Source: Methylophilales bacterium HTCC2181 (lineage in GTDB: Bacteria > Pseudomonadota > Gammaproteobacteria > Burkholderiales > Methylophilaceae). From it: 64,000 bases of DNA. Under the pieces are notes generated by a model. It did not search any database. It was not told the origin of the DNA and was given only the letters and a program-made list of their open reading frames with translations. The stretch is taken from positions 930,001-994,000 of the forward strand of contig AAUX01000001.1 in assembly GCA_000168995.1 (NCBI GenBank), in the 5' to 3' direction. Position 1 is the first letter of the stretch, and each line of letters begins with the position of its first letter. Of the stretch, positions 14,613-30,675 are shown piece by piece. The position numbers and the translations under genes were made by a program.

Positions 14613-15584
14613 CTAGCGGTTTGATATTAAGCTTAACAATGCCGTTAGCTTCCTTCTTAAATGAAGTGCAACTATAAGAAGTAAGCCGATGAAAATAGCA
14701 GGACGCTCCAATTGAAAGTCAGATTGAATCTTTTGATGCGGTCGATTATCTAAGATTTTTTTAGTGAATGTATCTGATAACTCACCTTTAATGTATTGTG
14801 ATTTTATTTGTTCTGATAAAGATATTAAATAGTCCTCATACAACTTAGTAAGATACCTCTCGTAATCTGCTGAAGCAACAGATGGATCAGGCTCATCTTT
14901 TCCACTATCACTATTTCTTGATCCCGTTGCCCCGGGAAGTGAGTCATAAATGTCTGATCCCCAGTATCCAACATACATATTTCTTGAATTATATCGCTTA
15001 ACAGGAACGGGAACGTTCCCTCCAATACCAACAAAAATTAACTCTTCCCCTAAATTAAAATCGTCCAGGTTAACTCGATTAATCGCATTTACCTTTGGGG
15101 CCTCATCACCATCAGTAAAAAAAAGAATTTTTGATGGGAAGTTTAGGCTGTCTTGCATTTTAGCAGCTGACTTTATACCAAATGTGATTCGCGAGTTTCC
15201 TTTCCAAGCCATTCTCCATTCAAGCTTGCTGATAGTATCCATCAACTCATCATAATTCTTACACTTTTCTACTGGTTCAATAATATTGGCAATATTATCT
15301 GCAACAAAAATATTAATGCTAAAAAAACTTCCACAATCTGACCTGTCAATGATGTTTTTTAAGAGGAGCTTGGTATATTCAATTCGGGTAACTGGGCTAT
15401 CCTTGACGAGTAAGTCTTCAGCATTCATCGATTGTGATACATCTACAAGGAGCATGTAACTGGTAATTGACTTCTTCAGCTGAACTGTTGGATTATTTAT
15501 AGCTAGAAGGCATAGTAATGCCAGTAGCACCATTACTGTTAGCTCTGTTTTATTTCTTAGAATATTGATAATGCCTGCAATCAT
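14613..15584 (-). CDS. mxaL: Methanol dehydrogenase maturation protein MxaL (VWA domain)
   Basis: MxaL is a membrane-anchored von Willebrand A protein of the Mxa maturation complex, implicated with MxaA and MxaK in calcium insertion into PQQ methanol dehydrogenase. The 323-residue protein has a transmembrane helix at about 16-30, a MIDAS motif at Asp48-x-Ser50-x-Ser52, and a second helix near 293-312 followed by a basic tail. It overlaps mxaK by 4 bases and is the last gene of the block. The family call rests on order and VWA/TM layout together, since VWA proteins are common. Confidence 0.85.
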   Translation of the reverse strand: MIAGIINILRNKTELTVMVLLALLCLLAINNPTVQLKKSITSYMLLVDVSQSMNAEDLLVKDSPVTRIEYTKLLLKNIIDRSDCGSFFSINIFVADNIANIIEPVEKCKNYDELMDTISKLEWRMAWKGNSRITFGIKSAAKMQDSLNFPSKILFFTDGDEAPKVNAINRVNLDDFNLGEELIFVGIGGNVPVPVKRYNSRNMYVGYWGSDIYDSLPGATGSRNSDSGKDEPDPSVASADYERYLTKLYEDYLISLSEQIKSQYIKGELSDTFTKKILDNRPHQKIQSDFQLERPAIFIGLLLIVALHLRRKLTALLSLISNR

Positions 15585-16126
15585 GGCAAACCAATAGGAA
15601 TATTACTGAGTTCCTGAACAGATTGCTCAGATATAATCTTTGATGCCTCAGTTGGTATGGAGGAGAGTAGTAAGCTTAAATTAAATTTTGCCATGCTATT
15701 GTCAGGGTTTATAGCCAATGACTTCTCAAGCGCAATGATAGCGCTTTGCAGTTTTTGAAAATTTTCTGCGGTAACTTTCCCATCATCGCTGAGTGGTTTA
15801 GTTAATGCATCCTTAAGATACAATGTCCCTATATTGTAATAAATCTCATCAATATTTCTGCTCTCGGGAAACATCTTCAATAGTCGTGTAAACTTTTCTA
15901 TTGCATTGTCATACTCGCCCTGCTCTCCAAGTTGGTAGGCAGAAGAATACAAGCTAAGAAATTCATAGTTATCGTTAATTATCAATTCGTCCTTTACTAA
16001 TTTTTGGTTAATCTCCGACACCTCAACAATCCTGCTGAACTCATAAAAAGAAAATAAAAGAAGACCTAAAAAAAGAATAGAAAAATAACGACCTTTTAGA
16101 TTGAAAATACTTTTTAACATCTTCAT
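15581..16126 (-). CDS. mxaK: Methanol dehydrogenase maturation protein MxaK
   Basis: The 181-residue protein has one N-terminal membrane helix (about 13-30) and a tetratricopeptide-like region: QLGEQGEYDNAIEKFTRLL near 67, then a second unit around AIIALEKSLAINPDNSMAKF. In methylotrophs MxaK lies between MxaC and MxaL and is needed for active, Ca-loaded methanol dehydrogenase; it probably scaffolds the VWA partners on the periplasmic side (inference). The 4-base overlap with mxaL and the 3-base gap from mxaC show strict coupling. Confidence 0.82.
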   Translation of the reverse strand: MKMLKSIFNLKGRYFSILFLGLLLFSFYEFSRIVEVSEINQKLVKDELIINDNYEFLSLYSSAYQLGEQGEYDNAIEKFTRLLKMFPESRNIDEIYYNIGTLYLKDALTKPLSDDGKVTAENFQKLQSAIIALEKSLAINPDNSMAKFNLSLLLSSIPTEASKIISEQSVQELSNIPIGLP

Positions 16127-16129
16127 AAG

Positions 16130-17086
16130 TTAGACCTTAATATTTTTAATGGCAATGAGAGATACAATTAGCGCTAATAATAATTTCAAAATTGACGGGT
16201 TATAATTTTTTCCGGGTATATCTCTTTCAATTTTGATGGGTTTTTTTTCTTTTTGATCAATATCAGCAATGGCGCTTGAAAGTGCATCGGGATTCTCAGC
16301 TTCGTATGCTTTATATTCGGTTTTAAGTGACTTAAAAAAATTGTCGAGTTTGATGACGGTCGGCTCCCTACCCTCAAGATAAGTATTTCCTGAGAATAAG
16401 CTAACATCATTAGGTTCTTTAATAATGATCCAATATAAATTTATTTTTTTTTCATTTAACATTTCCGCAATTCTTTCCTTAACCCTCTTGGATATTTTTC
16501 CGGCTCCGTCTGACAAAAGGACTAAGGCCTGAGATCCTGTTGTCTCAATTTCACTAAACATAAAAAGTCCTGATGTAATACCAGACCCTATGTTTGTTTG
16601 ATTAATCGAAGATCCTGTCGCTGCATCAATAGCTGCGTAGGTATAGCTTCTATTTTTAGTAATTTTTGAAGCGTAAAGTGCTGAGTTTGAAAACCCAACT
16701 ATACCAATCATATCCGATGGGCGTTGATCAATAAAATCCTTCAATATCCTTCTTGCAGCGAGTGATTTAATTTCAGACTTATTGTCATCGTCACCAATAA
16801 ATGGTTTTGCCATACTCACACTTCTATCAATTAGGAAGACAAGCTGAGCACCTTTACCGATTTCCGTAATGGATGTTGATTTGGACCAAGGATTTGCAAG
16901 AATAACCACCAATAGGAAAATAATGAGGGACATAAGAGATCGGCATAGCATAGTAATTTTTTTGGAAATACCGTCTTGTTCAAATATTTTTATACTGCTT
17001 ATAGCCGTATTGTCAGATATTGACACCATAAAAGGTAAGACCGATAAGGGTAACAATAACAGCCAAAGTGGATGAATAAAGTCCAA
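16130..17086 (-). CDS. mxaC: Methanol dehydrogenase maturation protein MxaC (BatA-like VWA)
   Basis: The 318-residue membrane VWA protein has hydrophobic segments at about 5-22 and 50-66 and near the C-terminus. A MIDAS triad Asp87-x-Ser89-x-Ser91 (LIDRSVSMAK) opens the VWA domain, with LVLLSDGAGK further on. This is the BatA/Aerotolerance-like layout shown by MxaC. Its start directly abuts the mxaA stop (no gap). It contains an A9 tract near 16443-16451, but tracts of this length are frequent in this AT-rich sequence. Confidence 0.85.
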   Translation of the reverse strand: MDFIHPLWLLLLPLSVLPFMVSISDNTAISSIKIFEQDGISKKITMLCRSLMSLIIFLLVVILANPWSKSTSITEIGKGAQLVFLIDRSVSMAKPFIGDDDNKSEIKSLAARRILKDFIDQRPSDMIGIVGFSNSALYASKITKNRSYTYAAIDAATGSSINQTNIGSGITSGLFMFSEIETTGSQALVLLSDGAGKISKRVKERIAEMLNEKKINLYWIIIKEPNDVSLFSGNTYLEGREPTVIKLDNFFKSLKTEYKAYEAENPDALSSAIADIDQKEKKPIKIERDIPGKNYNPSILKLLLALIVSLIAIKNIKV

Positions 17087-17950
17087 CTACAATTTTCTCT
17101 CTATAATTTTCAGTTCATTTGAAAGGTAAAGAATCTTATCAAATCGACTTTTTGAGTAGAAGGATTCCGATGAATAAACCTCATCATTCGTTATATCTAC
17201 GAACGCTTTAATCTCATGTTTGAAAGAAAAATATTTTGATTTATTAGAGATAAGCTTATCAATACTATCGCCATTCATGTTTTGTCCAAAGGCCTTATTA
17301 CAACCGTCCATTAGGACAAGTACCGACTCATCATAGCTCTCTTCATTGCCTAGGCGGTGTAAGGGCTTAATTTTTTTATTGGCTTTTGTAAAAGGGCCAT
17401 TCATTCTGGTGACAAAAGTTAGATCCATCTTTTTATAAAGGAGTATAAGCAGGACAGAAAAGGAAAGAGCTAGCAGTGCGAACAATGGCTGCCTGCTATG
17501 ATTTAATGGGTTAGGTTTAATTTGACCAAGGGAATTGAGAAGGATCTCATTAAGGTCTGAAGATGCAATGCGAGAAAACCAGTAACTTTTAGTAGATATT
17601 TCTAGCTCATCATCACCAATCTTATAATGGTGCGTTGGTAATGCATACTTTTTTCCCTCAGATCTATGAAAAATCTGGTAAGTAATTATATTAAAAAAGG
17701 TGTGCTCACCACCTTTACTAACATTATGACTTTCCTGCCTCACCAAACGAATGCCTACATTTTTCTTGACCAATAATTTTGGAGCATCTGAAAAAGGTTC
17801 TTTTGTGGTTATTTTATCCTCAACTAAGATCAAGTCACCAAGCTGAAATCCATGTTTAAAATTACTGATATTGCTTTCAAAATTATATTCCGCAGCAAAG
17901 GCGAAGGTGCTGATAGCTGCGGTAAAAAAGAAGATCAGGATCCGGATCAT
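17087..17950 (-). CDS. mxaA: Methanol dehydrogenase calcium-insertion protein MxaA
   Basis: MxaA is required for methanol dehydrogenase activity, probably for placing the metal next to PQQ. The 287-residue protein has a signal peptide (about 1-19, cut after FAFA), a periplasmic domain of about 135 residues, one membrane helix near 157-175, and a cytoplasmic tail of about 110 residues, the usual MxaA topology. The start overlaps the mxaS stop by 4 bases (ATGA). The sequence has no catalytic motif of its own; identification leans on topology and on its fixed place between mxaS and mxaC. Confidence 0.85.
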   Translation of the reverse strand: MIRILIFFFTAAISTFAFAAEYNFESNISNFKHGFQLGDLILVEDKITTKEPFSDAPKLLVKKNVGIRLVRQESHNVSKGGEHTFFNIITYQIFHRSEGKKYALPTHHYKIGDDELEISTKSYWFSRIASSDLNEILLNSLGQIKPNPLNHSRQPLFALLALSFSVLLILLYKKMDLTFVTRMNGPFTKANKKIKPLHRLGNEESYDESVLVLMDGCNKAFGQNMNGDSIDKLISNKSKYFSFKHEIKAFVDITNDEVYSSESFYSKSRFDKILYLSNELKIIERKL

Positions 17951-18789
17951 ATAACGGCTCTCATAAAGTATTGTTGAATGGCATTCATATCAATACCATT
18001 ATCTAACTCTAAATGCATTAGCTGATTTTTTGCGAAGATATGAAAAGTTTTTTCTTTTGATTTCCTATAATCATGCAATAATTTTTCTTTAACCCTCGGT
18101 CGTAAAAAAATTTCTCTCTCCAGGCTCAATTCAGAATCCTTAAAGTTGGTAAAGCCATAGCTTGGCAACCTTTTAATTTCTTCTTCAGTGGATAAATGAA
18201 CAGGGATAACATGATGATTGGACAGTTGCTCAATCATTGTATTAATATGTTTATGGCTGTGATGAAAGTCTGAGATCCAAAAAATTAATGATTTCTCATT
18301 AGGAACTTTCTGAGCAATGTTCGAAATATGATCGCTAGTTGCTCGGGCACCCTCTAAAGTTAGCCCATCAATCCATTTACCAATAGTATGAAAATTGTTG
18401 CTGGACTCTAGAGCAAGGTTATTTTTAATGACATCGTTATAGCACAGCATACTAAACATATCGCCATGCTCAACTGCTGATGATGCAATAATTTTGGCAA
18501 GTAACTTAATAGTAGAATTATTCTCCTTCATAGCGAACATTGAACTAGAAATATCACAAAGAGCTACCAGATTAACTGGATTGTTGAGATTGAATGTTTT
18601 AACAAATATGTTCTCATGTGGATCAGTAATGGAGTTTTTGATGTCGATACTAGAGAGGTCTGGGTGATCATTAAAGTTTTTAGAGCCGCTATATTCAAAA
18701 TCATTTCCTATCTTAGAGCTCAGATGATTTCCATACCGGTAATTTTTTGATCGCCATGATATCGAATAATTAAAATAATCTATTCTCAT
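17947..18789 (-). CDS. mxaS: Methanol dehydrogenase accessory protein MxaS (DUF58)
   Basis: The 280-residue soluble protein belongs to the DUF58/VWA-like family and almost always follows a MoxR ATPase. A MIDAS-like Asp79-x-Ser81-x-Ser83 (CDISSSM) is present, and a second acidic site lies in IFWISDFHH near 170. MxaS is expected to couple the MoxR chaperone ATPase to the membrane VWA partners MxaC and MxaL. It is 3 bases from mxaR and overlaps mxaA by 4 bases. Confidence 0.88.
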   Translation of the reverse strand: MRIDYFNYSISWRSKNYRYGNHLSSKIGNDFEYSGSKNFNDHPDLSSIDIKNSITDPHENIFVKTFNLNNPVNLVALCDISSSMFAMKENNSTIKLLAKIIASSAVEHGDMFSMLCYNDVIKNNLALESSNNFHTIGKWIDGLTLEGARATSDHISNIAQKVPNEKSLIFWISDFHHSHKHINTMIEQLSNHHVIPVHLSTEEEIKRLPSYGFTNFKDSELSLEREIFLRPRVKEKLLHDYRKSKEKTFHIFAKNQLMHLELDNGIDMNAIQQYFMRAVI

Positions 18790-18792
18790 TAG

Positions 18793-19824
18793 CTAATCCA
18801 GTTTTGGAGTGGCGACTTTAAGGAGGACTTCCTGTGTAAATTTTTCTAGCAACTCTGTTCTATTGTTTTCATAAATTCTATTGACCACTAACCTGTGAGC
18901 CATCACCGCATGAAACACATACTCAACGTCAATTGGTTGAACATGATCCCTGTTACTCATCCATGCGTTAACTTTTGCTGCCTTAACCAGCATAATCATG
19001 CCTCTTGGGCTACTGCCTGCAATGATAAAATCATCTATATCAATTCCTTCCACATCGACAGCAAATTTTCTTGGAGTCTCTGTTGCCTGCCACAATGTCT
19101 CAATATAGTTTTTGATGTGGTCGCTCGTCTGAATATTTTCTTGTATTGCGGCCGACACTGCATTAAGTTCTTTACAGTCAAACAATGGTGAAGGTATATC
19201 TTCAATCAGCTTAGAGGTGTCCTGAAACTTAGTATCAAAAATGATGGAATCACGCAAAACTTTATCTGTAGGAGACTGAATAGACACCTCCATCATAAAT
19301 CTATCTCTTGCTGCGGCTGGAAGCTCAAAGGTTTCATTCTTTTCAACCTGATTACGATCTGCAAAGACAACCATATTAGGAAGATAAATAACATCATTGA
19401 ATGCGCTCACCGATTTTTCTGCCATTACTCGCAACAATAATGAGTGAACTTGGGGCCTAGCCCTATTGATTTCATTAAAGAAGAAGATAGAGAGATCCTC
19501 CCCTTTTTTTAACAAAGGGCCCTTTGAGATACTTGGCTTTCCCTCATCATTTATTGATGCATGATAGATGATATCGTTAGGCATTAGATCGACTGTACCT
19601 TCGACCCTTTCGTATGAACCACCTATCAGTTTAGTAATAACTTGCAGCAGGGTCGTCTTACCTACACCTACGCCGCCTTCCAACAACACATGGCCTCGGG
19701 CAAAAAGACTAATAATAACTAGGTTAATAGCTTTTTCTTGGCCCAGGATGATCTTATTGGCATCCTGTTTTATTTTAAGGGCATGCGCATGCCATTCTTT
19801 GGCTATATTCGTATCAATTTTCAT
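18793..19824 (-). CDS. mxaR: MoxR-family AAA ATPase MxaR
   Basis: This is the chaperone-like AAA+ ATPase of the methanol dehydrogenase maturation system. The 343-residue protein has Walker A GGVGVGKT (50-57), Walker B IFFFNEIN (113-120), and the LPAAARDRFMM sensor region in which family members carry a Q-x-x-DRF motif. A clear GAGGAATTC ribosome-binding site precedes the ATG. It lies 42 bases downstream of the muconolactone-isomerase-like gene and starts the strictly coupled R-S-A-C-K-L series. Many bacteria have other MoxR loci, but only methylotrophs have this six-gene order. Confidence 0.9.
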   Translation of the reverse strand: MKIDTNIAKEWHAHALKIKQDANKIILGQEKAINLVIISLFARGHVLLEGGVGVGKTTLLQVITKLIGGSYERVEGTVDLMPNDIIYHASINDEGKPSISKGPLLKKGEDLSIFFFNEINRARPQVHSLLLRVMAEKSVSAFNDVIYLPNMVVFADRNQVEKNETFELPAAARDRFMMEVSIQSPTDKVLRDSIIFDTKFQDTSKLIEDIPSPLFDCKELNAVSAAIQENIQTSDHIKNYIETLWQATETPRKFAVDVEGIDIDDFIIAGSSPRGMIMLVKAAKVNAWMSNRDHVQPIDVEYVFHAVMAHRLVVNRIYENNRTELLEKFTQEVLLKVATPKLD

Positions 19825-19866: not shown

Positions 19867-20181
19867 TTAACTATTATGTCTATCTTTAACGTCAGAAGCA
19901 AAGCCCTCATAGGTCCTTATTGCCCTAACATTGACCTGAACATGCTGGCCCATTCTTCTCATAATGGGTAAGTCGAGAAGAATCTGATCGAGCATTTCGT
20001 GACTTTCGACATTTACAATTGCAATAACGTTTCTTTCCCCAACAACCTTCCAAAGATCCACTACCACTCCAGCCTCTTTTGCCCCTAGAGCCGCGCCAGC
20101 TTCTTCGGTCCAGATATCAAACAAATCATTTTGTGTCATATTGGCTGAATACCCAACCTGAAAATCTAGATGAAATAACAT
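19867..20181 (-). CDS. Muconolactone delta-isomerase-like small protein
   Basis: The 104-residue protein resembles muconolactone isomerase (MIase): an MLFHLDFQV strand at the start, then DLWKVVGERNVIAIVNVES and a LPIMRRM segment, matching the family's LWRxxGxxxN...LPL pattern. MIase isomerises an aromatic-degradation lactone, but no catechol pathway genes are present. Its place as first gene of the mxa block suggests a different, methylotrophy-linked role (inference). The start has a good AAGGAC site 6 bases upstream. The leader ahead of it contains a long hairpin. Confidence 0.75.
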   Translation of the reverse strand: MLFHLDFQVGYSANMTQNDLFDIWTEEAGAALGAKEAGVVVDLWKVVGERNVIAIVNVESHEMLDQILLDLPIMRRMGQHVQVNVRAIRTYEGFASDVKDRHNS

Positions 20182-22316: not shown

Positions 22317-25300
22317 TTACCTTTCATCAAGAGCAAAATCAATGATCTTTAATTGATCGTCAAGTTTATTGTAAAAATTATTAATAAAAAATTCAGTATT
22401 AGCAAAATAATAGGCTGTGTTGTAGTCGATATTAACAGGAGTCTCACTGAGATTGTCTGGAAGGCGAATAGGCCTTCCTTCTTTAAAGTGCTTGATACTC
22501 AATTGATCAAGCCCCCCATTATTGTTAATAATCAAATTGGTGGCTATTGCACGTTTTAATAGCTCCACATCCTCAGGGGAGTGAATGACTAAAGTTTTTT
22601 TCATATGCCCATTATCGAAATTGGTCTCCCATAGTAGCCTTTTCCAGTCCTTTCGGTCTTTGCAGTCCACCATGGATATTTCTGGAACTATACTATCAAG
22701 GAGGTTGCCATCGGGCGACTGATAGCCATCAAATGCAATTAACAAAGCTTTGCCTGGGTTGGCAACAAAAAAATTATTTTCATTTTCTCCGTAATAGGCC
22801 AGCAAGCTATCTAAGCTGATCTTCTCGAGTATGTTACGTGTATTTTTTCGTGTAAATTTTATTTGTTCTGACTTTATATCGTCGGCCAAGTCGATGCGCT
22901 TTTCAATTTCACCGATCTTTCCTGCTATAAAACTTTCCTCTCCGGGTATCTTCCCTTCCGCCCAACCATTAAAGGGTTCAACTTCAAACTTAGATGGTTT
23001 TTCACTCCTTAATATATCAAGCTTAGCCTGAAAGGCTTTAAAAATATTATTGGACAGGATACTTTTGACACCAGATGTATCTTTATTAGTAATCCGATAA
23101 TTATTTTTAAATAAATCTTCTGAATCCGTAAAATCTTTATCGAAATTGCCTAATTTGATTGTGTTATCTTCCCCTTCGATGATGGTTGGTGTGATGATGA
23201 GAACGACTTCTGTATCAACGTTGCTTGGGCTCTCGAATGAGAATAATCCTCCGAGTAAGGGGATAGATGACAAAACCGGCACACCCGTTGTAGTCATGGT
23301 TTTTTGTTTGCTCACCAGTCCTGCAATAATGAGTGGAGACTCATTGTTAACTCGTGCATATGTTTGAATTTTGCGTAAAGTGGTGGTGGGCGCGGATGCC
23401 ATAGCTACCCCGGTGCTGTTGTATATAATCACATCCTCATCATCAACCTTTTGTGAAATAGTTGCATCTATCAACATACTAATTTCCTGGTTGTCATCCG
23501 AAATCCTAGGGCGAATATTTAACATGATACCTACCGGTAGATAGGTAAAACCAGCCGTCGAAGCGCCAACGGCTGTAGTCACACTCGCGGCGATAGGAAT
23601 ATTCGTTCCCACCTTGATTGAGGCCTGCCTATTATCCAGGGTCATTAAGGAGGGTTTTGATAAAACCTGTGATTTTGTTTTAGTAATTAAAGCCTCAAGA
23701 TTAGCGGCAAAAGATGGCCCTGCACCAGTGCCACCCGCAGTCGTATAAGCTACGCTTGCCGCAGCCGAACCAGCGGCAACCGATGTAATTTCAGCTAACG
23801 TACCAAGACTGATAATCGAACCATTAGTTCTTGTGGTAGACCAGTTTACCCCTAGCTTTGATAGTTCGCTTGACGCTATCTCTAAAACAATACCCTCGAT
23901 CAGAATCTGTTTGGCTGGCCTATCGATAAGCTCAGAAATTGCCTTGTTGACCCGCAACAAGGCCTTTTGATCATTAGGGTTGTAAATTACTAAAAGCTGA
24001 GATGAAACTTGGCCTGCAAGGGGCACAGGGAGATCTGCTGTTGGTGGCGAAGTAAGTTGCGAGCTGGTAGGGGTTGTTGTCGAATCAGTATAAGTGTCGG
24101 TAGTTGATGTAGTGGAGCTCTGCTGACTCAAATATTTATTCAGCGTATTACCACCTACTAAGCCGGTTGATTTAGCATCAGGGGATGGCATTTTAACAAT
24201 CATTGGCAAACGGCTTGCTTTAATAGCACTGGGTAAATATTCAATGGCGTTGCTTTGTTCTGTATCGTCTTCAACATTATCTGATGCGGAATCGGAATAT
24301 AAATTGTTGCTACTCTTCGTTGTATTTGTCTTGTTTAATTTATCAAAAACATCGTCACTATTGCTTGAAGTATTCTTTTTGGGGGCACTATCCATTTCAT
24401 TATTCTTTTTTTCTTCTGCAGTTAACGGAAGACCTAACTTTCCTCTAAAGCTATTATCAGCCCAAAGTGCCGCACTGTCTGTGATTACAGAAAATCCCAT
24501 AGCCTTTAAACCGAACAATGCGCCATCTGGATCTACGTATGACAAATTAATTAGCTTGAAATCAAGATCTTTGACCGACAGGCTACTTTCGTATTCCAAT
24601 GTTTTGGTTGAAACCTTTTTAATCAAATCCCCTATAAACATATTGGTATTTAATGTGTTAGGTAAAATTTCACCATCCACTGATTTGGTCGAATAAACAT
24701 TTAGCTGGGGTGTTCTTCGAGGTCTTTTCATGTAACCAAAATACATATTTTCGTAAACGTTTTCCTCCAATTTTCTTTGAATGGCGCTATAAAAAATAAC
24801 GTCCTCAACTTCAGGTACTGAGGTGGAAAGGGATATTGGAACCACATTAAAACCTTCGTTCATTTTCAACTCAAATACAATGTCGTCTATTAAGGCCTCA
24901 ACCTCTACTATACTAATATTTGGAAGCTCGATTAATCGCGATGCTGGAAGCGGAATTTCATCCAATATAGGATTTTTTGTAGCATTATCATCGGCACTTA
25001 ATGCAACATTTTTTGTCAAAGTATCAGCTTTATTCTCTTTTGTAACAACAGGCTCAGTTTTTTCTTCTCCTGAAGTAGGATCCACATAAGGGTTCTCATC
25101 TTTAACAACAGCACTAATTGAAGTAGATTTTTTCGCTGTACTAGAGTTAGTTATTTTTTCAAAAATATCGTCACCACTGCTTTGGATTGGTTTTTCTTTT
25201 ACCACGACAGGATTGTTTTTTTTCTCTGATAATAAATCGTATTGGGGGGATAAATTTAGAGGATCTTCTGGGGGTTTATCTAATTTTTCTTCCAGTAAGG

Positions 25301-25502
25301 CGGGGGGGGGATTTATGACTTTTAAGTTCAAATCATTTGGCGAAGGTTTAAAGTAAGATACTAGGGCGGCTTTTTTATTTTCTAAATTAGTTTTTAAATC
25401 ACTAACAAAGCCGTCATCATTAATGATTGGTCCTAAAAGGGAAGCAGAAACTCCTGCTAAAGCAAGGCAATTCATAGCTATTAAAAAAGTTAATTTATTC
25501 AT
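22317..25502 (-). CDS. Very large orphan secretin (GspD/PilQ/MshL superfamily)
   Basis: This is an outer-membrane secretin, a ring channel used by type II/III secretion and type IV pilus systems. The 1061-residue protein has an N-terminal export signal (about 1-20) and a low-complexity linker (about 60-180). A domain of possible N0/N1 type follows at 190-345, then a Ser/Thr-rich linker (370-490). An N1-like segment from about 500 (VSSQLLVIYNPND) runs into the secretin core at about 530-775, with VPVLSSIPLLGGLF and VVLIITPTII. About 285 residues beyond the core match nothing I know. No ATPase, pilin or platform gene is nearby, and only the four-cysteine-repeat protein is linked. A C9 run lies at codons 65-67. 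Confidence 0.85.
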   Translation of the reverse strand: MNKLTFLIAMNCLALAGVSASLLGPIINDDGFVSDLKTNLENKKAALVSYFKPSPNDLNLKVINPPPALLEEKLDKPPEDPLNLSPQYDLLSEKKNNPVVVKEKPIQSSGDDIFEKITNSSTAKKSTSISAVVKDENPYVDPTSGEEKTEPVVTKENKADTLTKNVALSADDNATKNPILDEIPLPASRLIELPNISIVEVEALIDDIVFELKMNEGFNVVPISLSTSVPEVEDVIFYSAIQRKLEENVYENMYFGYMKRPRRTPQLNVYSTKSVDGEILPNTLNTNMFIGDLIKKVSTKTLEYESSLSVKDLDFKLINLSYVDPDGALFGLKAMGFSVITDSAALWADNSFRGKLGLPLTAEEKKNNEMDSAPKKNTSSNSDDVFDKLNKTNTTKSSNNLYSDSASDNVEDDTEQSNAIEYLPSAIKASRLPMIVKMPSPDAKSTGLVGGNTLNKYLSQQSSTTSTTDTYTDSTTTPTSSQLTSPPTADLPVPLAGQVSSQLLVIYNPNDQKALLRVNKAISELIDRPAKQILIEGIVLEIASSELSKLGVNWSTTRTNGSIISLGTLAEITSVAAGSAAASVAYTTAGGTGAGPSFAANLEALITKTKSQVLSKPSLMTLDNRQASIKVGTNIPIAASVTTAVGASTAGFTYLPVGIMLNIRPRISDDNQEISMLIDATISQKVDDEDVIIYNSTGVAMASAPTTTLRKIQTYARVNNESPLIIAGLVSKQKTMTTTGVPVLSSIPLLGGLFSFESPSNVDTEVVLIITPTIIEGEDNTIKLGNFDKDFTDSEDLFKNNYRITNKDTSGVKSILSNNIFKAFQAKLDILRSEKPSKFEVEPFNGWAEGKIPGEESFIAGKIGEIEKRIDLADDIKSEQIKFTRKNTRNILEKISLDSLLAYYGENENNFFVANPGKALLIAFDGYQSPDGNLLDSIVPEISMVDCKDRKDWKRLLWETNFDNGHMKKTLVIHSPEDVELLKRAIATNLIINNNGGLDQLSIKHFKEGRPIRLPDNLSETPVNIDYNTAYYFANTEFFINNFYNKLDDQLKIIDFALDER
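25302..25310 (-). repeat. C9 homopolymer inside the secretin gene
   Basis: Nine consecutive G on the plus strand are read on the minus strand as three CCC proline codons (residues 65-67 of 1061). It is the longest G/C run I found in the window; a few G7 or C7 runs occur in housekeeping genes. Tracts of this kind can vary in length by replication slippage, which here would shift the frame very early in the protein. Confidence 0.9.
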
Positions 25503-25697: not shown

Positions 25698-25789
25698 TGG
25701 CGGAAGGAGAGGGATTCGAACCCTCGTTAGGGAGTTCACCCTAAACACGCTTTCCAGGCGTGCGCCTTAAACCACTCGGCCACCCTTCC
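25698..25789 (-). tRNA. tRNA-Ser (anticodon GGA)
   Basis: The 92-nt gene folds as a class II tRNA: acceptor GGAAGGG pairs with the 3' strand, position 8 is U, and the D-arm begins GGCCGAGUGG. The anticodon loop CUGGAAA gives anticodon GGA at 25755-25753. A long variable arm (GGGUGAACUCCC region) and the T-arm with GGUUCGAAUCC follow, and the discriminator G and CCA are encoded at 25701-25698. It reads UCC/UCU codons. It lies between the secretin gene and the divergent aldehyde dehydrogenase gene. Confidence 0.97.
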
Positions 25790-28132: not shown

Positions 28133-29767
28133 ATGTCATACCAAGTTCTAGCCCGTAAATGGCGACCAAAATCGTTTGACACACTCATAGGACAAGAAAG
28201 TGCTGTCCAGGCAATCGCAAATGCTCTAGATCAAAATAGACTGCATCACGCTTATCTATTTAATGGCACCAGAGGCATTGGAAAGACTACAATAGCTAGA
28301 ATTCTTGCCAAATCACTCAACTGTGAACAAGGCATTTCATCCAAGCCCTGTCTCACTTGTTCGGCATGCCAAGAAATCGATGTAGGCCGTTATGTAGATC
28401 TCATTGAATTAGATGCAGCCTCTAATACCGGAGTCGACAATATGATCGACTTGCTAGAGAATGCGCAATATGCTCCATCATCAGGACGCTTCAAGGTTTA
28501 TATTATCGACGAAGTGCACATGCTTTCCAAAAGCGCCTTTAATGCGATGCTCAAGACTCTGGAAGAACCGCCAGAGCATGTAAAGTTTATTCTCGCAACC
28601 ACAGAACCTCAAAAAGTGCCGATTACCGTGTTGTCCCGCTGCCTTCAATTTAATTTAAAACAAATGACTACGGAAAATATCGCCAGTCACTTAACGAGCA
28701 TCCTTACAGAAGAAAAAATTGGATCTGAGAGTGGTGCTATTCAAATTATTGCAAAAGCAGCAAACGGTAGCATGCGAGATGCGCTATCTATACTTGATCA
28801 AGCTATTGCCTATTCTTCTGAAAAAATTAGCACGGAAAAAGTCACGCAGATGCTTGGAACAATAGAGGATGACATCCTATTTGACATTATTAAGCATCTT
28901 ATTGATAAAAATGGAAAAGGTCTGACCGATATCGCCAAGGCGATGGAGGAAAAGAATACATCATTTGATGACGCTCTTAACGGGCTAGCCAAACTTGTTC
29001 ATGAGCTGGCTGTCTGCAAAATTATTCCTGACCAATATGCAGAATCAAGTAAAAAAAATTTATATGAAGAGTTTGCAAAAAAACTAACGGGAGAGACATT
29101 GCAACTGTTCTATCAAATAAGTATTAACGGAAGAAAAGACCTATATCTAGCACCAGACCCTATTACAGGTTTCACTATGACTCTTTTAAGGATGTTGGCT
29201 TTTTATCCAGCTAGCAATTCATTAAAGGAAAAATCTGATCCTATAACAAAAACGCAAACAGAGGCTCCTGAAAAAAAAAGTCTAATTCCTAGGATTGCAG
29301 AGAAAACTTTTACTGCAAAGCAAGACACCACCAATAGTATTACCAATGCACCGACGAAACCCAAAGAGCCTGGAAATGCCGATTTTGATGGTGACTGGAA
29401 TGTATTAGTAAGTCAGTTAAAAACTGGGGTAGCAAAAACACTGGCTCAGGAATGCCAGTTTCTATCTTACAAAGATAATACCTTTCATCTTTTTCTCGAT
29501 GAAAAGCATACATACCTCTCCCAAAATGATTATGTGCAAAAACTAGAAGAACAATTGATTAATCATTTTAATAAAAAGCTTAAGCTAGACATCAAGATTG
29601 ATAGAGTTAGCACGTCCCCTGCAATCGAGAAAAGAACAGAGAAAGAAGCCCTTTTGAAGGATGCTGAATCTGCTATCATGCAAGATAATTTTGTAAAAGA
29701 GCTGATTTCCGACTTTAACGCGGAGATTATTCCATCAAGCATTGAACCCATTAAAAAGGAAAAATAA
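28133..29767 (+). CDS. dnaX: DNA polymerase III subunits tau/gamma
   Basis: DnaX is the clamp-loader ATPase; tau also tethers the polymerase cores and DnaB. The 544-residue protein has Walker A GTRGIGKTT (about 44-52), the Zn-binding Cys cluster CLTCSAC (about 76-83), Walker B IIDEVHML (about 124-131) and the SRC sensor (about 167). A linker at about 375-415 follows domain III. At codons 380-383 there is a run of nine A (29271-29279), where a -1 or +1 shift reaches a stop within seven codons; this could yield a gamma-like short form. The gene leads dnaX-ybaB-recR. Confidence 0.95.
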   Translation: MSYQVLARKWRPKSFDTLIGQESAVQAIANALDQNRLHHAYLFNGTRGIGKTTIARILAKSLNCEQGISSKPCLTCSACQEIDVGRYVDLIELDAASNTGVDNMIDLLENAQYAPSSGRFKVYIIDEVHMLSKSAFNAMLKTLEEPPEHVKFILATTEPQKVPITVLSRCLQFNLKQMTTENIASHLTSILTEEKIGSESGAIQIIAKAANGSMRDALSILDQAIAYSSEKISTEKVTQMLGTIEDDILFDIIKHLIDKNGKGLTDIAKAMEEKNTSFDDALNGLAKLVHELAVCKIIPDQYAESSKKNLYEEFAKKLTGETLQLFYQISINGRKDLYLAPDPITGFTMTLLRMLAFYPASNSLKEKSDPITKTQTEAPEKKSLIPRIAEKTFTAKQDTTNSITNAPTKPKEPGNADFDGDWNVLVSQLKTGVAKTLAQECQFLSYKDNTFHLFLDEKHTYLSQNDYVQKLEEQLINHFNKKLKLDIKIDRVSTSPAIEKRTEKEALLKDAESAIMQDNFVKELISDFNAEIIPSSIEPIKKEK

Positions 29768-29768
29768 T

Positions 29769-30077
29769 ATGAGCAAAGGTGGTATGGGAAATATAATGAA
29801 ACAGGCGCAAATGATGCAAGCCAACCTACAAAAAGCGCAAGCTGAATTAGCATCGATAGATGTGCAAGGTTCTGCTAGTAACGGGCTGGTAAAGATTGTT
29901 ATGTCATGCAAGCATGAAGTAAAAAAAATTGACATCGATCCATCAATACTTGAAGACAAGGAAATGCTAGAGGATATGCTTGTGGTCGCATTAAAAGATA
30001 CATTACAAAAAATTGAGGCAACTACCTCATCAAAAATGGGTGGGTTAGTCCCACCAGGAATGAATCTTCCCTTCTAA
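29769..30077 (+). CDS. ybaB: Nucleoid-associated protein YbaB/EbfC
   Basis: This small DNA-binding dimer of 102 residues starts at ATG 29769, one base after the dnaX stop; the frame reaching back to 29742 lies inside dnaX. It has the MSKGGMGNIMKQAQMMQ N-terminus, the coiled-coil helix and the LVPPGMNLPF end of the family. It sits between dnaX and recR in the standard order and is thought to organise DNA and affect repair and gene expression. Confidence 0.95.
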   Translation: MSKGGMGNIMKQAQMMQANLQKAQAELASIDVQGSASNGLVKIVMSCKHEVKKIDIDPSILEDKEMLEDMLVVALKDTLQKIEATTSSKMGGLVPPGMNLPF

Positions 30078-30078
30078 A

Positions 30079-30675
30079 ATGAAAGATACAGAAGTCCTTC
30101 AATCCTTAGTGGATGCATTGAAATGTTTGCCCGGAGTAGGTCCTAAGTCTGCCTTAAGATTGGCTTATTACTTGCTTCAACGCAATCGAAAGGGAGCTGA
30201 TACCCTCTCTCAATCAATTTCTAATGCACTTGAACAGTTAGGTCACTGTAAATTATGTAATGACTTTACCGAGCAAGAAGTATGTAAAATTTGTAGTTCT
30301 CAAAAAAGAGACGTGCACACTATATGCATTGTGGAGATGCCCTCTGATTTGTTAATGATGGAGCAAACACATTCCTACAAAGGTATGTACTTTGTTCTAA
30401 TGGGGAGACTATCACCTCTGGATGGTGTGGGGCCCAAAGAAATTCATTTGGACAGACTTATTGAGCGAATTAAAAGCTCTGAGATTAGAGAAATAATACT
30501 TGCTACAAACTTTACTGCCGAGGGAAACGCTACAGCCCAATACATCAAGGAATTATTGAAGGGTGCTGAAATAAAAATGACTCGAATTGCCAGAGGTCTT
30601 CCTATGGGCGGGGAAATTGAATACATCGATAGTGGAACCTTAGCTCAGGCTGTCGTGGAAAGAAAACAGCTTTAA
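30079..30675 (+). CDS. recR: Recombination mediator RecR
   Basis: RecR works with RecO and RecF to load RecA at gaps. The 198-residue protein has the helix-hairpin-helix LPGVGPKSALRL near 16, the four-cysteine zinc finger CKLC...CKIC (about 55-71), and a Toprim domain starting ICIVEMPSDLLMME (about 79-92). It ends in convergent 4-base overlap with the HAD phosphatase gene. It completes dnaX-ybaB-recR. Confidence 0.96.
   Translation: MKDTEVLQSLVDALKCLPGVGPKSALRLAYYLLQRNRKGADTLSQSISNALEQLGHCKLCNDFTEQEVCKICSSQKRDVHTICIVEMPSDLLMMEQTHSYKGMYFVLMGRLSPLDGVGPKEIHLDRLIERIKSSEIREIILATNFTAEGNATAQYIKELLKGAEIKMTRIARGLPMGGEIEYIDSGTLAQAVVERKQL

Follow-up and report, generated by a model that had tools for sequence, protein, structure and literature searches.

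Secretins are the gates through which pilus-type, type III and phage export machines open the outer membrane. The described members that come closest to the protein considered here are GspD of the type II secretion system (T2SS), the pilus secretins MshL and PilQ, and phage protein IV, which does its work with no T2SS motor. We carried out a computational analysis of the secretin P0001, encoded in a 64,000-nucleotide stretch of the genome of Methylophilales bacterium HTCC2181 (contig AAUX01000001.1, positions 930,001 to 994,000; hereafter the window), and find that it is a true orphan genome-wide and that it belongs to a family of secretins with a common C-terminal extension, rather than being a private oddity. 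On balance we lean towards the view that P0001 is a gated outer-membrane channel that functions without a pseudopilus motor, and that it is a divergent member of a new secretin family, many of whose other members are coupled to inner-membrane transporters.

The similarity of P0001 to described secretins is centred on its core. The open reading frame (ORF) is intact, with an ATG start, zero internal stops and 1061 codons, and it lies on the minus strand and contains the core motifs quoted when the sequence-only reading first called it a secretin. The Pfam Secretin family (PF00263) is matched at 134 bits against a gathering score of 27.5 (E 5.2e-39), and a Pfam scan of the whole protein returns no second family at E<=1. 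NCBIfam secretin models (GspD, MshL, SctC, PilQ and others) also match the core, all below their curated cut-offs: GspD (TIGR02517) scores 172.9 bits, half of the curated 351.35, while MshL (TIGR02519) reaches 137.2 bits against 250.2, and PilQ (TIGR02515) 103.4 bits against 284.35. Sequence matches to solved secretins in the PDB are confined to about residues 400-800. GspD (PulD, 6hcg; V. cholerae GspD, 5wq8) resembles P0001 in the barrel and the preceding N-type domain, and GspD structures are among the best solved matches in both sequence and fold. P0001 differs from GspD in having an extra domain with a predicted BamC-like fold, an insert, and a 277-residue C-terminal domain, and its flanking domains likewise differ from those of MshL and PilQ.

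Structure models were made for residues 186-1061 (mean predicted local distance difference test score, pLDDT, 72.5; predicted template modelling score, pTM, 0.44) and separately for residues 774-1061 (pLDDT 86, pTM 0.83). In the modelled barrel region, GspD, pIV, PilQ and InvG are matched at Z 10-13. The two parts of the split N-type domain together resemble the XcpQ N-domain 4ec5_B (Z 6.9, root-mean-square deviation (rmsd) 2.0 over 60 residues; model range 129-344). Of the N0 and repeated N1-N3 domains typical of GspD, the fold comparison picks up one N-type domain. The modelled N-terminal domain resembles 9nlt_B (Z 7.9, rmsd 3.4 over 98 residues) and 9hg5_C (Z 7.8, rmsd 3.8 over 105); because some unrelated folds also reach Z 7-8 against it, this BamC/Flpp3 likeness may reflect only a common arrangement. 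The two low-complexity linkers described in the sequence-only reading are present, as stretches at about residues 1-185 and 346-500 judged by eye.

The sequence-only reading held that the C-terminal ~285 residues match no domain, and profile searches and structure prediction bear this out. The C-terminal part has zero Pfam, NCBIfam or PDB-sequence matches when P0001 is searched by itself. Across 52 family members, Pfam gives only four single-member matches to the extension, the best at E 0.014, and a 52-row profile against PDB sequences gives one match, at E 0.95; these profile searches yield no credible known domain for either the extension or the N-terminal domain. Comparison of the modelled extension by Foldseek against the PDB (best E 1.2), by VIA (best Z 2.4 with rmsd 11.9), and against a viral structure library (best E 0.067, probability 0.09) likewise returned nothing credible, and no strong match of this region to a known secretin domain emerged. 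The absence of a fold match to the predicted structure does not prove a new fold.

P0001 has no pseudopilus motor to work with in its own genome. The assembly comprises 1,304,428 bases in 3 contigs and is 94.98% complete, such that about 5% may be missing, and P0001 is the single secretin found in it. Motor genes were sought through three families, T2SSE (PF00437), the platform family T2SSF (PF00482) and prepilin peptidase (PF01478), with pilin and pilotin outside this set. There are 0 matches to the platform family and 0 to prepilin peptidase, where the same searches were positive in 13 and 12 of 14 control genomes, respectively. T2SSE gives one 43-position match of 17.4 bits, below the cut-off of 24.9, whereas it matched all 14 control genomes, 13 of them above the cut-off. 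The genome thus differs from a T2SS gene set in having neither GspF nor prepilin peptidase, nor a GspE above cut-off, and differs from pilus systems in the same respect. The orphan status proposed from the lack of a GspE-type ATPase or platform protein in the 64 kb therefore extends to the whole genome, PF00437 being matched only below its cut-off, and no T2SS, MSHA or type IV pilus set lacking its own secretin was found there. That P0001 serves a degenerate or scattered T2SS or MSHA/type IV pilus system is consistent with the GspD and MshL models scoring best on its core, but those scores fall far below the cut-offs, the motor families are missing as described, and no GspE-like gene lies near the secretins of its relatives. 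This explanation is largely refuted, and we regard it as very unlikely.

A viral origin fares no better. PHROG 1012 (M13 protein IV; solved structure 7ofh) matches residues 500-775 at E 7.7e-44, as would be expected of a filamentous phage virion-export secretin, but the homology is limited to the core. Family profiles run twice against viral contigs found zero relatives of the secretin, and the P0001 matches listed from plasmid and phage records cover the core only, with 0 records covering 80% of the protein. The flanking window genes that were scanned are of cellular types. We disfavour a protein IV-type role and consider it extremely improbable.

What sets P0001 apart is shared by a family. 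Over residues 187-1058, P0001 and a protein from another genome share 31% identity (E 1e-134), which places the architecture of P0001 beyond chance. A scan of GTDB genome contigs with an alignment of five members, run via two short patterns, identified at least 59 loci; given the use of two short patterns, this number is a lower bound that favours members carrying those motifs, and a single-protein scan of the same contigs found zero relatives. As the extension is common to these 59 other loci, it is a family trait. The loci are mainly titled Burkholderiales, Planctomycetota and Verrucomicrobiota, and include Duganella alba, Polynucleobacter sp. 30F-ANTBAC, a Lacisediminimonas metagenome-assembled genome (MAG), Roseateles oligotrophus, a Ramlibacter MAG, many Phycisphaerales and other Planctomycetota, Verrucomicrobia, and one Kiritimatiellota. 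Two further titles, Bordetella parapertussis (L048) and Akkermansia muciniphila (L079), belong to metagenome bins, and these names look unreliable. The family is rare but spread: a profile of the C-terminal extension matches 5 of 399 genomes of the order and 2 of 398 of the phylum, HTCC2181 included in each. Among 120 genomes, again including HTCC2181, one other has a near full-length match to P0001 (G093, of the same order and another family; E 5e-125), and the remaining matches listed cover parts of residues 390-809. In three genomes of the same genus (G002, G016 and G023) secretins are matched weakly, with best E values from 2e-9 to 6e-14; these may be standard T2SS or pilus secretins located on islands.

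Members of the family share their domain order, which P0001 follows: N-terminal domain, split N-type domain, barrel and C-terminal extension. A profile built from nine betaproteobacterial members matches 64 of the 64 sequences scanned, spanning from the N-terminal domain to the extension except in L078, L090, L093, L100 and L101; in L092 the match ends at position 913 of 964. In an alignment of 52 rows (the window protein and 51 of the 59 loci), mean column identity is 0.74 in the barrel, 0.56 in the extension, 0.45 in the N-terminal domain and 0.09 in the insert at residues 346-420, and the secretin model matches all 52 members at E<=0.01. P0001, itself one of the rows, shares all 44 invariant columns. 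In a quick tree of 57 rows, the 18 betaproteobacterial rows make up one side of a branch with a support of 100. Among the open-licence PMC papers listed, none was seen to deal with a bacterial secretin that stands alone or is linked to an ABC transporter; CsgGF is a different system and not a match to this family (PMC9004378).

The neighbours of these secretins point to how the family may work. We compared 62 distinct loci, comprising the window, L033, L040 and the 59 scanned loci (L094 and L048 are the same contigs as L041 and L042), and grouped them by record titles and the tree, with L055, L061 and L099 assigned as planctomycetal by the tree and L100 as betaproteobacterial by title. To search the neighbourhoods, we used a single example of each of six proteins: an ATP-binding cassette (ABC) exporter, a major facilitator superfamily (MFS) transporter, a binding protein, an MscS-type channel, a subtilase and a 254-aa membrane protein. 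The last has zero Pfam matches and is sensor-like by reading only, while Pfam assigns each of the other five to a named family. An inner-membrane transporter is adjacent or fused to the secretin at 45 of the 62 loci. Among planctomycetal loci, 28 of 31 have an ABC exporter, which shares an open frame with the secretin in 12 and is its immediate same-strand upstream neighbour in 16; of these, L070 has the membrane half in a second frame that overlaps the first, and L069 has a fragment at a contig end; no ABC gene was seen at L078 (a contig edge), L083 or L095. An MscS-type protein (MS_channel plus cyclic nucleotide monophosphate (cNMP)-binding domains) adjoins the secretin at 9 of 11 verrucomicrobial or kiritimatiellotal loci, counting L101, where the secretin frame is split, and was not seen beside it in L082 and L085. 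Betaproteobacterial loci have an MFS transporter (MFS_1) with a PF04392 binding protein (ABC_sub_bind) in 8 of 20 cases, the binding protein being cut off in L046. A search run with GspE-like controls found no GspE-like frame near family secretins; L061 has a 162-aa N-terminal GspE-like fragment about 9 kb from its secretin.

The joined ABC-secretin frames are the closest form of this pairing (L088:6803-11272, L057, L058, L061, L067, L068, L070, L072, L075, L076, L080 and L081). Both of the joined frames scanned with Pfam (L088 and L061) have ABC_membrane, ABC_tran and Secretin in a single chain. The ABC parts have a Walker A motif in each case except the L070 membrane half, and pattern searches find Walker B except in L057, L061 and L067. 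At eight of nine junctions examined, which leave aside those of L057, L061 and L067, the two halves are separated by a hydrophobic segment with a lipobox-like Cys at its end (less clearly in L058); the L088 junction has a hydrophobic segment that lacks the Cys. Such a segment is likely an internal signal, and the protein may mature into two chains. In the tree, all 16 unfused planctomycetal members group in a single clade that excludes the 12 joined ones.

Other genes recur beside family secretins. A ~1000-aa subtilase gene precedes the ABC-secretin pair and is co-oriented with it at ten Phycisphaerales-type loci (L052:3262-6285 and nine others), and in L052 it comprises Peptidase_S8 plus a P-domain, with an apparent signal peptide, making it a possible cargo. 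The cNMP-binding domains of the MscS-type proteins recur at L084:11257-12756 and eight other verrucomicrobial or kiritimatiellotal loci. They also recur in G465 (L148:10699-13809), a family member outside both the order and the 62 loci, where two genes on the other strand follow the secretin, one for a cNMP-type protein and one for a sulfate permease that has STAS and cNMP domains. At L096:5178-8387, L098:2796-6734 and L091:6609-8414, the gene directly upstream of the secretin encodes a large protein that apparently has a signal peptide; this gene slightly overlaps the secretin in L096 and L098, and the L096 protein has a DM9 repeat. These proteins are candidate cargo in lines without a transporter partner.

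The sequence-only reading had proposed an undescribed export or adhesion system. The repeated pairing with inner-membrane transporters lends weight to export, and nothing seen here points to adhesion. By analogy with other secretins, P0001 would assemble into a multimeric gated pore in the outer membrane, with its N-terminal and C-terminal domains in the periplasm, where the C-terminal domain could couple or anchor the pore to inner-membrane partners (an ABC exporter, an MFS transporter with binding protein, or an MscS-cNMP channel). The pore would then pass material already in, or delivered to, the periplasm, and apparently exported neighbours, such as the Cys-repeat protein encoded after the secretin in the window and the subtilase of the ten Phycisphaerales-type loci, are candidate cargo. 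Type I secretion, in which an ABC exporter and adaptor are joined to TolC, works in a like manner only: it pairs an ABC exporter with an outer-membrane channel as the planctomycetal members do, whereas this family uses a secretin in place of TolC, and the window copy has no adjacent ABC partner. There is a real chance, though we would stop short of calling it probable, that the family represents the outer-membrane part of a novel type of machine spanning the cell envelope. In such a machine, a new periplasmic domain would link the secretin to an inner-membrane transporter that drives it or is coupled to it; in Planctomycetota this transporter would be an ABC exporter, in some cases encoded in one frame with the secretin. 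P0001 would then be a pared-down form carried on an island and handling a disulfide-rich repeat protein.

Transport may run in either direction: the ABC exporter partners argue for export, and the binding protein and MFS transporter could argue for import. In the case of import, a large substrate would enter the periplasm through the secretin and be taken up by the PF04392 binding protein and MFS transporter, and in HTCC2181 the channel may serve the MoxR/VWA (methanol-dehydrogenase-type) genes. In addition to the eight betaproteobacterial loci with both partners, this draws on a MoxR/DUF58/VWA/TPR/VWA cluster downstream of the secretin in the window, which resembles mxaRSACKL, and on L095:2141-8518, where a family secretin has MoxR, VWA, VWA, TPR and BatD-type genes immediately upstream. 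That is a single case, however, and so could be chance: relatives of the window MoxR- and VWA-type proteins lie near no other family secretin (1 of 61 other loci). The planctomycetal partners have the ABC_membrane plus ABC_tran layout of exporters, and the MFS partner was not found in the HTCC2181 genome. We consider import unlikely but not negligible.

Table 1. Coordinates of P0001, its domains and neighbouring features in the window.
Feature	Window coordinates	Strand	Basis or remark
Secretin ORF P0001, 1061 aa	22317..25502	-	sole secretin found in genome
P0001 residues 1-185, hydrophobic N-terminus (signal peptide by eye) then low-complexity stretch	24948..25502	-	sequence; aligns poorly across family
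P0001 residues 186-307, N-terminal domain common to family	24582..24947	-	model: helix-grip fold like BamC/Flpp3; pLDDT mostly 80-93
P0001 residues 312-345, N-type domain, first half	24468..24569	-	fold comparison
P0001 residues 346-500, insert splitting N-type domain	24003..24467	-	mostly low-confidence model; conserved stretch 421-452
P0001 residues 501-528, N-type domain, second half	23919..24002	-	model and fold comparison
P0001 residues 604-776, secretin barrel PF00263	23175..23693	-	Pfam, PDB sequence, fold comparison
P0001 residues 785-1061, C-terminal extension	22320..23150	-	common to family; alpha/beta model
Cys-repeat protein P0003, 637 aa	20361..22274	-	42 bases after secretin
Muconolactone-isomerase-like gene	19867..20181	-	Pfam; downstream of P0003; neighbour only
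Six-gene MoxR/DUF58/unknown/VWA/TPR/VWA cluster	14613..19824	-	Pfam; neighbour only
tRNA-Ser(GGA)	25698..25789	-	195 bases upstream of secretin; strain-variable region border

The Cys-repeat protein P0003 is the nearest candidate client of P0001 (Table 1). It consists of four four-Cys units, with spacings of 9-9-8, 9-9-8, 9-9-7 and 8-9-7, followed by a C-terminal domain (about residues 304-609). The survey of co-occurrence suggested in the sequence-only reading shows a weak link between the two genes. Full-length relatives of P0003 are confined to the HTCC2181 genome among 120 searched, and only the C-terminal half recurs, at L047:16053-17078 (E 1.8e-10), just beyond the MFS and binding-protein set of that family locus, and as a free-standing gene in G170 (2 of 399 genomes of the order, HTCC2181 included). 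Since this half recurs beside the L047 secretin but also in G170, the link is suggestive and not tight. P0003 has zero matches in the PDB at E<=1, a single Pfam match under the cut-off (E 0.13), zero relatives in the viral contig scan and zero plasmid matches; a PADLOC match of 13.4 bits was set aside as weak. The statement that P0003 is the only gene linked to the secretin was too narrow, as the same strand continues with the muconolactone-isomerase-like gene and the MoxR/DUF58/VWA/TPR/VWA cluster.

In HTCC2181, the secretin is likely cargo of an island. The MoxR/VWA cluster lies inside the same strain-variable 11 kb, which is bordered by tRNA-Ser(GGA). In a synteny sample of seven of the 14 other same-genus genomes having the aldehyde dehydrogenase, the pairing of that gene with tRNA-Ser is kept in all seven, downstream content differs from the window in all seven, and P0001 was not found within 13 kb of the tRNA-Ser border in any of the seven. 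In G013, the genes that follow the 11 kb block of the window start about 1.2 kb past the tRNA. A study of Methylophilaceae reports a replacement island, fGI-1, bordered by tRNA-Ser(gga), with other insertions carrying a T2SS and a pilus cluster that is incomplete (PMC10872708). Genome size, synteny and the MoxR/VWA cluster suggest that the bacterium is probably a methylotroph of pelagic waters belonging to this family. The synteny break at tRNA-Ser, together with this reported island, leads to the island reading. Simple integration at the tRNA is not supported because the window has no second copy of the tRNA 3' end, at up to 3 mismatches. In this setting the Cys-repeat protein would be a possible client, with no dedicated transporter seen nearby. 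Separately, dnaX-ybaB-recR-type genes lie within about 8 kb of the secretin in both G315 (L040:891-3482) and the window (28133-30675), with ybaB and recR identified by reading; this is probably coincidence.

An island location also raises the scenario that P0001 is decaying or idle cargo: a secretin that arrived without its partner transporter and that persists by chance on an island exchanged not long ago. The lack of P0001 near the border in relatives fits this, as do the lack of a partner transporter, the long branch of the window protein, and a best same-genus match of E 6e-14 against 5e-125 in G093. Yet the 1061-codon frame is intact, P0001 retains the 44 columns that are invariant in the alignment in which it is itself one of 52 rows, and the genome is a streamlined 1.3 Mb. 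We judge idleness distinctly unlikely.

Several observations weigh against P0001 as a motor-independent channel of a transporter-coupled family. The window secretin has no adjacent transporter, with the ABC example matching only two ABC-type ORFs ~23 kb away, and a Polynucleobacter-type MFS transporter was not found in the genome in a search that had no positive control. The MFS partner is also not in view at 12 of 20 betaproteobacterial loci including the window, some of them short contigs. A P0003-type protein occurs without the family secretin in G170, where secretins are present and none has a match that reaches the C-terminal extension. Pfam finds Secretin_N in 1 of 52 aligned members. 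In the tree, P0001 sits at the end of a very long branch of 3.17 changes per column, which makes its exact place unsure and could mean altered or failing function. With the internal lipobox-like segment in most of them, the joined frames may not give a single mature chain, and the ABC signature motif between the Walker motifs was found by pattern in L076 only, so that these are putative ATPases. The partners belong to unrelated transporter classes, and thus the apparent coupling may be co-inheritance in operons.

Overall, the observation behind the sequence-only reading was right and its guess at an undescribed system was reasonable, while the adhesion option finds no support, the extension proves to be a family trait and the link to the Cys-repeat protein is weak; the family and its transporter partners are a stronger result than that guess. 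If the proposed coupling holds, a secretin gate can be wired to inner-membrane engines other than a pseudopilus motor, including ABC transporters, MFS transporters and mechanosensitive channels. The C-terminal domain, with a confident model and no credible PDB match, is a good structural target, and the joined ABC-secretin frames make the coupling directly testable with one gene. Planctomycetota and Verrucomicrobiota would then have an outer-membrane export route that the family models used here do not name.

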